Below, in pieces: positions 60,661 to 62,286 of a stretch of 64,000 nt of DNA. This stretch comes from Gammaproteobacteria bacterium (GTDB taxonomy: Bacteria; Pseudomonadota; Gammaproteobacteria; Pseudomonadales; Azotimanducaceae), in the NCBI GenBank assembly GCA_004357385.1, contig SMWF01000001.1, forward strand, positions 1 through 64,000, written 5' to 3'. Made by a program: the position numbers and the translations under genes. A model generated the notes under the pieces. The model saw only the letters and a list, made by a program, of their open reading frames with translations, had not been told where the DNA came from and did no database searches. Numbering within the stretch: position 1 is the stretch's first letter; each line of letters begins with the position of its first letter.

Positions 60661-61545
60661 TCATCCTCGAGGGTGGTGTTCCTGGTGCAACGACTTCAAG
60701 CGCCGCTGCGCCACGTGAGTATAGATCTGGGTGGTGGATAAATCCGCATGTCCAAGCATCATCTGCACGGCTCTCAGATCAGCGCCGTGATTCACCAGAT
60801 GTGTGGCAAACGCATGCCGTAGCGTGTGGGGCGAAATTGTGACGCGCATCCCAGCCTGGCGGGCATAGCGCTTGACCGCATACCAGAACGTCTGACGGGT
60901 CATGGCCCGGCCACGCCGGCTGGGAAACAGCACGTCGCTGGTACGTTCTCCCAGCAGCAGCGCCCGGCCACTTCCAAGGTAGCGCTGCAACCAGTCAAGC
61001 GCCTCTTCACCAACGGGCACGAGCCGTTCCCGGCCGCCCTTGCCAATCACCCGCACCACGCCCTGGCGCAGGTTGAGCATGCTGAGCTTCAGTCCAACCA
61101 GCTCGGACACCCGAAGTCCCGTGGCGTACAGCAGTTCCAGCATGCTGCGGTCCCGCAAGCCGATGGGTTGGTCGCAGTCCGGTGCCTCAAGCAGCGCCGT
61201 CACCTGAGCTTCGGACAGCGATTCCGGTAGTCGGCGACCGAGTTTAGGCAGGTCCAGGCGCTGGGTGGGATCCAGGGCGATGATGCCCTGCTCGGCGAGT
61301 TGCCGGTAAAACCCGCGCAGGCACGACAACAGGCGTGCGGTAGAACGTGAACTGTAGCCCGCTTCCTGGCGTTCACCGAGGAATTCGAACAGATCGTCCG
61401 GACGCGCCCGATCGAGTGATCGTGGCGACAACCATTTTGCAAACGTCTGGAGATCACGTCGATAGGCCTGCAACGTGTTGGCCGCGAGACCGCGCTGCAA
61501 CCACATTGCGTCCAGGTGCCGATCGATGAGCGTCACGTCAGTCAC
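60661..61545 (-). CDS. xerD: site-specific tyrosine recombinase XerD
   Basis: Acts with XerC and FtsK at dif to resolve chromosome dimers. It has about 294 residues. The start is GTG at 61545 (VTDVTLIDRHLDAMWLQRGL); a TTG at 61551 is possible. The catalytic Arg is in YATGLRVSELVGL, HTLRHAFATHLV gives His-x-x-Arg, LLGH-like LGHADLSTTQIYTHV holds the last His and the Tyr nucleophile. The C-terminal end HQEHHPRG is typical of XerD. XerC is not in the window. Confidence 0.95.
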   Translation of the reverse strand: MTDVTLIDRHLDAMWLQRGLAANTLQAYRRDLQTFAKWLSPRSLDRARPDDLFEFLGERQEAGYSSRSTARLLSCLRGFYRQLAEQGIIALDPTQRLDLPKLGRRLPESLSEAQVTALLEAPDCDQPIGLRDRSMLELLYATGLRVSELVGLKLSMLNLRQGVVRVIGKGGRERLVPVGEEALDWLQRYLGSGRALLLGERTSDVLFPSRRGRAMTRQTFWYAVKRYARQAGMRVTISPHTLRHAFATHLVNHGADLRAVQMMLGHADLSTTQIYTHVAQRRLKSLHQEHHPRG

Positions 61546-61702
61546 TGGCAAAATTCGTCGTCAGATGACCCTGTTTGTTAGTTCAGTTCACAATGTAAAC
61601 GGGATCTAAATTCTCACGCTGCCGACAGATTACACCAATAACTGCATGAAAAATAACCACTTACCTAGATATTCTTGGAATAACTCACGCGCATCGGATT
61701 TC
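61546..61702. other. upstream region of the sigma-54 unit (no gene)
   Basis: This AT-richer stretch separates xerD from the sigma-54 promoter. I see no ORF. It has two close GTTCA repeats at about 61581-61590 and a short dyad TATTC-TTG-GAATA (61670-61682) about 20 bp before the -24 box. Enhancer-binding protein sites are expected in such a region, but no consensus NtrC site (TGCAC-N-GTGCA) is visible. Confidence 0.5.
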
Positions 61703-61718
61703 TGGCACGGTTGCTGCA
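61703..61718 (+). promoter_or_regulatory. sigma-54 (RpoN) promoter
   Basis: TGGCACGGTTGCTGCA has the invariant GG (61704-61705) and GC (61716-61717) with exactly 10 bp between them. Only one base (C for T in the -12 TTGCA) departs from the core consensus TGGCACG-N4-TTGCA. The expected transcription start is about 12 bases on, at 61729-61730. It faces away from xerD and toward no ORF. Confidence 0.85.
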
Positions 61719-61728
61719 CATAGCGTTG

Positions 61729-61900
61729 TAGCTTCAACGAACATACGAGCTGTCCCCCTCGGTTCGTTGAAGCTCGCGGCAGATCGGTCGTCTCTCCCCG
61801 ATCGCTGCATAGCGTTCAGCCCACCAGGACCGGACGCAACCAGCTTGTTAGGCGACACCTTCCCCTCCTTGGTCTGCGCCTAGCAAGCTGGTTTTCTTTT
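61729..61900 (+). ncRNA. predicted sigma-54-dependent small RNA with three C-rich loops
   Basis: About 172 nt with no credible ORF, between a sigma-54 promoter and a rho-independent terminator. Hairpin 1: a 13-bp perfect stem, 61730-61742 with 61762-61774, 19-nt loop holding GTCCCCCTC. Hairpin 2: GATCGG 61782-61787 with CCGATC 61798-61803, loop TCGTCTCTCC. Hairpin 3 is the terminator, with CTTCCCCTCCTT in its loop. All loops are pyrimidine-rich and could pair with GGAG/GGGGA in mRNA ribosome sites. Vibrio Qrr and Pseudomonas NrsZ are known sigma-54 sRNAs, and Xanthomonas sX13 uses C-rich loops. I do not recognise this one as a member of a named family. Confidence 0.75.
61838..61900 (+). terminator. 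rho-independent terminator of the small RNA
   Basis: AACCAGCTTGTTAGGCG (61838-61854) pairs with CGCCTAGCAAGCTGGTT (61877-61893): 17 pairs including one G-U, with a 22-nt loop, followed by TTTTCTTTT (61892-61900). The T-run is on the plus strand only, so the element serves the plus-strand transcript, not rplS. Confidence 0.92.
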
Positions 61901-61935
61901 CGCAGGGTACCCTCGGATGGCCAGGCCGTATCCGC

Positions 61936-62286
61936 CTAGACTTTTTCCTTGATCCGCGCGGCGCGGCCGGTAAGACCGCGAAGGTAGTACAACTTCGCCT
62001 GGCGTACGTCGCCGCGGCGTTTCACCTCAACCGCCGCAATCAACGGGCTGTGACTCTGGAAGGTTCGTTCGACACCCACGCCGTGAGAGATCTTGCGCAC
62101 GGTGAATGACGAGTTGAGGCCACGATTGCGCTTGCCAATCACCACGCCTTCGAACGCCTGCAATCGCTCCCTGTTGCCTTCTTTGACTCGGACCCGGACG
62201 ACAACAGTATCACCCGGCCTGAATTCCGGTAGGTCGGCCTTCAGCTGTTCCGATTCCAACGCGTCGATAATCTTATTGTTCCGCAT
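61936..62286 (-). CDS. rplS: 50S ribosomal protein L19
   Basis: L19 lies at the 30S-50S interface. It has 116 residues, the normal length, with [46 protein letters not shown] and the end [18 protein letters not shown]. It is the last gene of ffh-rpsP-rimM-trmD-rplS, four bases after trmD, and converges with the predicted small RNA. Confidence 0.98.

Follow-up and report, generated by a model that had tools for sequence, protein, structure and literature searches.

Does the gap between xerD and rplS of an uncultured gammaproteobacterium hold a small RNA (sRNA) gene, and what would such an RNA be made for? The gap is part of a contiguous stretch of 64,000 nt (the window in the following), for which an original prediction had proposed a self-contained, sigma-54-driven RNA gene. 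We read it as a member of an undescribed sigma-54 sRNA family that is probably activated by PilR and probably acts via antisense pairing of C-rich loops, and we give this reading a probability of about 0.57.

Locus and Unit Layout

Both neighbors are encoded on the minus strand, i.e., xerD (60661-61551) is divergent from the sRNA and rplS (61936-62286) convergent to it. The sigma-54 promoter TGGCACGGTTGCTGCA is located at 61703-61718 on the plus strand, with its GG at 61704-61705 and its GC at 61716-61717. Given the position of these -24/-12 elements, transcription is predicted to start at about 61729, and one nucleotide later begins a perfect 13-bp stem (61730-61742 with 61762-61774). The unit closes with a terminator hairpin (61838-61901, plus strand), whose arms CCAGCTTGTTAGGCG (61840-61854) and CGCCTAGCAAGCTGG (61877-61891) are extended by AA/TT to a stem of 17 bp. 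They enclose the large pyrimidine-rich loop ACACCUUCCCCUCCUUGGUCUG (61855-61876) and are directly followed by TTTTCTTTT (61892-61900). That is, the predicted ends of the RNA are 61729 and 61901 on the plus strand (about 172 nt), which is backed by the covariance model, covariation and synteny detailed below. The GG-N10-GC promoter, the stem at start distance, the 17-bp terminator stem and the opposite strand of rplS were all part of the original prediction and were recovered as described. The terminator is missing from the output of our terminator scan, presumably since its 22-nt loop exceeds the scan's loop limit of 8.

It had also been stated that no ORF lies within the unit. This holds with regard to genes but not for mechanical frames, of which two on the minus strand (35 and 57 aa) and one on the plus strand (38 aa) overlap it. 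A frame of at least 20 codons that is common to all copies of the RNA was not found. A small ORF was rejected: three copies (L049, L061, L077) are without a frame of at least 20 codons, and the frames found elsewhere differ except for look-alikes in close relatives. We also discarded a leader or 3' UTR, since the RNA's own promoter and the convergent neighbor speak against it.

Within the genome of the window, the promoter word TGGCAYN5YTGCW shows 13 matches compared to 15 for the reversed control, i.e., it occurs at chance level. The case for an RNA gene thus has to rest on relatives.

Conservation among Relatives

When 150 genomes of the window's family were searched at the nucleotide level, five more clear copies stood out from numerous chance matches. 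Together with the window copy, they were used to build a covariance model (R1), which matches 39 of the 206 family genomes. When applied to 293 genomes of the order, R1 matches only two, both from the window's family. A second model (R2), built from 38 copies, matches 7/390 genomes of the order, namely four within the family, including two new ones (G048, G034), and three outside of it (G466, G574, G273). The latter were counted as false, since neither a TGGCAC-type promoter precedes the match nor do xerD or rplS match nearby. One additional copy (G076) was found by locus inspection, such that the 39 R1 genomes and the three R2 copies (G048, G034, G076) sum up to 42 carriers, all of them in the window's family. 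A pattern scan of named genomes yielded seven loci. They all come from metagenome assemblies that carry the label Gammaproteobacteria, Pseudomonadales or Proteobacteria, and at least most of them are genomes already covered above. Antisense copies of the palindrome, a second match in G114 (L079; no promoter, no neighbors) and a partial second match in G175 were dropped before counting.

In 37/42 copies (35/39 R1 loci plus L133 and L157), the RNA is flanked by both xerD and rplS, i.e., with regard to neighbors and their orientation, the arrangement seen in the window recurs in relatives. Among the remaining loci, L047, L068 and L071 keep the RNA with rplS not within 1500 bases, xerD is unmatched at L063, and at L134 xerD alone was seen.

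The promoter is kept as well. GG-N10-GC is present in 42/42 copies, and TGGC and TGC are invariant in the 41 tabulated promoters. With regard to the general sigma-54 consensus, 38/39 copies match 10-12 of its 12 letters, while 28 RNA-less regions reach at most 8. Since our promoter picker favored GG-N10-GC words (the promoter of L077 was read by eye after a wrong word had been picked), these scores rather than the bare GG and GC carry the weight.

To cover genomes without an R1 match, rplS was sought in 30 of them, which resulted in 29 loci. At 28 of these, R2 does not match and no sigma-54 word exceeds 8 of 12 letters, with xerD out of reach in three and an early contig end in one of them; the 29th locus is that of G076 and holds the RNA. 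Genomes without a model match thus seem to truly lack the gene.

No named family was recognized in the original prediction, which agrees with Rfam 15: the window shows no match (the only weak one has 12.3 bits compared to a threshold of 44), and neither do 20 of the 39 homolog-type loci, L133 included. Conservation across 42 genomes, with kept -24/-12 elements, covarying stems, synteny and no common ORF, confirms that the observed unit is real and beyond chance and supports the proposed self-contained RNA gene. Relatives without conserved stems and -24/-12 elements, which would have contradicted the original prediction, are not what we observe.

RNA Structure and Apical Loops

The region 61729-61915 folds with -84.8 kcal/mol (z-score -7.59), and none of 200 shuffled sequences reaches an energy as low. 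The 13-bp stem forms hairpin H1 (61730-61774), whose apical loop includes CUGUCCCCCU (61750-61759). Beyond the two hairpins of the original prediction, we find a second conserved hairpin H2 (61776-61808) with the most conserved loop UCGUCUCUCC (61788-61797). A small third hairpin at about 61812-61837 is an insertion that none of the other five sequences in the first alignment has. All are encoded on the plus strand.

For 38 copies, standard base pairs are observed in 89.6% of the pair cells, and 33 of the 37 stem pairs are changed on both sides. The covariation score is 0.465 compared to 0.190 for shuffled and at most 0.092 for slid alignments, where the alignment was fitted by the model and thereby favors the structure. 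This difference rules out chance hairpins. One AT-rich and poorly matching copy (L077, genome G167) shows a second hairpin that looks degenerate; PilR was not found in that genome.

Given the predicted folds of 39 copies, apical loops consist of 53% C, 32% U, 9% A and 6% G, i.e., they are 85% pyrimidine. The C content of the whole RNA is 35%. UGUCCCC is found in the H1 loop and GUCUCUCCC in the H2 loop. The terminator loop has additional C runs besides CUCUCCCC or a similar stretch, and many of the most conserved letters fall into loops. One genus (g37 in the following) differs: most of its copies show CGCCUCUCC in the H2 loop, and none of the ten folds such that H1 has a CCCC loop.

Upstream Sites and Candidate Activators

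The genome of the window is 92.7% complete and encodes three intact sigma-54 activators and a broken one. Of the intact ones, NtrC is encoded next to NtrB and PilR next to PilS and a minor-pilin-like gene, and the third is a CbrB-like protein whose gene is flanked by gluQRS and pcnB. Here, NtrC, NtrB, GluQRS, PcnB, XerD and RplS passed curated family-model cut-offs, while PilR, PilS, PilA, the minor-pilin-like protein, PilB/C/D, CoaE, the CbrB-like protein, DsbC and TrmD are presumed identities, assigned by neighborhood or general knowledge. The CbrB-like gene (L082:1063-2547 on contig C12) ends about 92 bp before pcnB, and the place that CrcZ takes in Pseudomonas appears empty. The fourth activator is split over two frames (L083/L084, C121:810-1290), i.e., it is either a pseudogene or an assembly error.

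Among the 13 promoter words of this genome, 10 fall within ORFs of more than 150 aa. Another one (L087) is part of a short frame at the end of a contig, and no gene is seen behind it. Only two are intergenic and precede a suitable gene, namely those of the sRNA and of pilA. The latter gene (L170:13581-18296, contig C137) is divergent from pilB, pilC and pilD-like genes followed by a coaE-like gene, which resembles a type IV pilus cluster.

The older tandem consensus of PilR sites first raised the idea of PilR as activator. We compared sRNA and pilA upstream regions. Since the family model PF00114 reported no pilin in 26 genomes, pilA was sought with the protein of the window's own genome, which gave pilA-like genes in 27/30 genomes. 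Of the 30 resulting loci, 21 with a credible promoter were used and nine dropped. Their upstreams have a GTGAC-N7-GTCAGC-type motif in common. Counts for the sRNA cover 38 copies, with L077, L133, L134 and L157 set aside, and shuffled sequences are first-order Markov samples.

Paired TGAC/GTCA half-sites occur 43 times in 21/21 pilA upstreams (null 1.0) and 21 times in 15/28 sRNA upstreams outside g37 (null 1.4), where the pair patterns as well as the g37 split were chosen after inspecting the sequences. Single GTGAC/GTCAC half-sites are found 39 times in 22/28 of the latter (10.7 expected). That is, 13/28 loci do not show the paired arrangement and 6/28 are wholly without GTGAC/GTCAC. Words matching the general IHF consensus are present in 9/28 sRNA upstreams (null 0.2) and 6/21 pilA upstreams (null 0.1) at similar distances from the promoter word, i.e., -41 to -65 and -53 to -86, respectively. 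A matrix trained on pilA only yields a mean best score of 0.22 on 38 sRNA upstreams, compared to -6.68 (sd 0.81) for 20 shuffles. In g37, neither paired half-sites nor IHF words are observed (0/10 each).

Being scarce in gaps without the RNA, the sites do not just belong to xerD: 25 such gaps (3861 nt) hold four half-sites, three pairs and no IHF word, while the sRNA upstreams (5320 nt) hold 39, 21 and 10, respectively. Within the window itself, the upstream sites are weak, i.e., the candidate PilR-type site GTCGTCAGATGACC (61557-61570) is weaker than in several relatives. The best match of the pilA matrix is CTAACAAACAGGGTCATCTG (61562-61581, minus strand) with a score of 9.1, compared to a mean of best shuffle scores of -6.7. 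A weak IHF-like site TAACTGCATGAAA (61639-61651, reverse orientation) has two mismatches to the consensus WATCAANNNNTTR. New here is that spaced TGAC/GTCA half-sites and IHF-like sites, as seen at the sigma-54 promoter of pilA, appear to recur in many sRNA upstreams. Neither these sites nor the C-rich loops were part of the original prediction.

PilR orthologs (63-76% identity) are clearly separated from paralogs (at most 45%) among the matches listed, which reach down to an E-value of about 2e-82, such that short PilR fragments may escape. Among these matches, PilR is found for 30/32 carriers outside g37 (exceptions are G099 and G167) and for 0/10 carriers within g37. Over all 206 genomes and again for the matches listed, 30 PilR-bearing genomes have the RNA and 38 do not, compared to 12 and 126 genomes, respectively, where PilR was not listed (Fisher's p=1.4e-8; 6.8e-14 without g37; genome counts uncorrected for ancestry). 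In other words, the RNA is absent from 38/68 PilR-bearing genomes. The exception G099 is 74% complete and shows the RNA and tandem GTGAC sites, with neither PilR nor pilA found.

The g37 carriers (L064, L068, L069, L071-L076, L078) keep the sigma-54 promoter, are without pilA-like sites and have a changed H1 loop. Since they have the RNA without PilR, another activator must serve there. This pattern agrees with a role of PilR outside g37, and it shows that a different activator can take its place.

Proposed Mechanism and Alternatives

The RNA would represent a family of trans-acting small regulatory RNAs, transcribed by sigma-54 RNA polymerase at the -24/-12 promoter, for which the conservation of the latter argues. 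PilR bound about 90-180 bp upstream would open this promoter, and DNA bending by IHF would assist; shared motifs and co-occurrence point to both. The sRNA would then be made together with the major pilin PilA. Given the covariation-supported structure, H1, H2 and the terminator hairpin would each present a C/U-rich loop. These loops may lower the translation of several mRNAs by pairing with G-rich stretches in or close to their ribosome-binding sites, i.e., the sRNA may act as sX13 of Xanthomonas does. The resemblance between the switches of the sRNA and of a pilus gene, as judged from their sequences, suggests that the RNA retunes protein production during pilus making. Concerning targets, the pilA mRNA is not supported (mean z-score of 0.13 for 21 same-genome pairs, a crude estimate that takes the most upstream possible start), and a scan for G-rich words near ORF starts within the 64-kb window returned one ORF and nothing convincing.

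A more far-reaching version, to which we give just short of even odds, sees here the first sRNA family of the PilS/PilR-sigma-54 regulon: a multi-headed C-rich antisense RNA made with the pilin, which represses mRNAs with G-rich leaders and whose promoter was passed to another activator in one genus when PilR was lost. If true, pilus deployment carries its own post-transcriptional arm.

The main competitor, which we consider unlikely, keeps the sRNA but assigns it to another sigma-54 activator, i.e., NtrC or the CbrB-like protein, such that it would respond to nitrogen or carbon starvation as NrsZ or CrcZ do. Both proteins are present in the window's genome, the g37 carriers have to use some activator other than PilR, and PilR was not found in G099, which carries the RNA together with GTGAC sites. 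However, NtrC-type GCACC/GGTGC half-sites are not enriched outside g37 (8 compared to 9.5 expected), which makes NtrC an unlikely main activator there. Their excess within g37 (15 compared to 6.3 expected, 10/10 loci) seems to stem from the xerD start region of the related genomes, and the motif in common is shared with pilA. Somewhat less probable still is that the C/U-rich loops titrate an RNA-binding protein, as CsrB-type RNAs do with CsrA and CrcZ with Hfq. This would suit similar loops being repeated on separate stems and the many highly conserved loop letters. But CsrA binds exposed GGA, for which loops with 6% G and 9% A leave little room, and the A-rich (ARN)3 stretches expected from a CrcZ-like decoy, which we rejected for this reason, are present in only 4/39 RNAs. 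To our knowledge, there is no bacterial decoy with CUCUCCC-type loops.

Two explanations remain. A mainly local role, in which transcript and hairpin would insulate or control either the convergent rplS operon or the divergent xerD, would account for the presence of both neighbors in most copies, yet we consider it improbable: loop letters are more conserved than a terminator requires, promoter and upstream sites are retained too, and three loci have the RNA with rplS out of the 1500-base range. Hardly credible is a chance promoter next to a REP-like palindrome or terminator, i.e., no RNA gene at all. The chance-level frequency of the promoter word would allow for it, as would similar palindromes in other families: G466 has palindromes of the type GGAGCCAGCTTGCTGGCGATC at three places (L135, L138, L140), which look like REP elements and also match the stem of the terminator. 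Against this stand the covariation of three hairpins, the kept promoter and synteny. The palindrome of the sRNA is moreover single-copy in its own genome and the matches outside the family come without promoter or xerD/rplS, such that a REP-like palindrome was rejected.

The PilR-activated antisense RNA remains our preferred reading. The family is directly testable, given its strong covariation, its conserved promoter and the one genus that lacks the presumed activator.

Comparison with Known Systems

Sigma-54-dependent sRNAs are already known for nitrogen and carbon sensing, and also in quorum sensing. A PilR-linked sRNA, if true, would couple the deployment of type IV pili to the control of translation. 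Our literature survey, which covered few subscription papers and is no proof, found no description of the window's sRNA family or of a PilR-controlled sRNA.

According to the accessible parts of the sources, NrsZ of Pseudomonas is a sigma-54-dependent sRNA linked to motility, which is located after ntrC, activated by NtrB/C and processed from a length of about 226 nt, and which acts as an activator of rhlA (PMC8395346, PMC9731577). The window's sRNA is likewise a sigma-54-type sRNA gene in Gammaproteobacteria but resides between xerD and rplS. CrcZ and CrcY are driven by sigma-54, a response regulator and IHF, and CrcZ has 407 nt, A-rich Hfq motifs and a cbrB-pcnB location, as given in the available portions of PMC8395346 and PMC8657755. 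The same type of drive is proposed here, while A-rich motifs are rare and the locus is not cbrB-pcnB. For FlmE (CJnc230) of Campylobacter, the accessible text reports an RpoN-dependent RNA of about 98 nt that is processed from the flgE mRNA and co-regulated with a surface filament, the flagellum (PMC11187230). Co-regulation with a surface filament is also what we propose, although with pili and not flagella.

The sRNA sX13 of Xanthomonas is reportedly confined to Xanthomonadaceae. The window's sRNA resembles it in having three stems with C-rich apical loops (in g37 without the CCCC of H1). In the parts of PMC3771888 available to us, sX13 is described as strongly structured, with three stable stems and C-rich apical loops of 4C, 4C and 5C as likely pairing sites, which need G-rich motifs of the target mRNAs and act without Hfq. 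Its gene adjoins polA and is said to be absent from other bacteria (PMC3771888). By contrast, the window's sRNA is found at xerD/rplS and shows a hairpin at its predicted start, where the 5' region of sX13 is unstructured, as well as a sigma-54 promoter with pilA-like upstream sites; no sigma-54 promoter is named for sX13 in those parts of the source (PMC3771888). Since locus and promoter differ and the comparison is one of layout and not of sequence, we do not file the sRNA under sX13. Rather, it adds a further occurrence of the design known from sX13, i.e., C-rich loops on stable stems.
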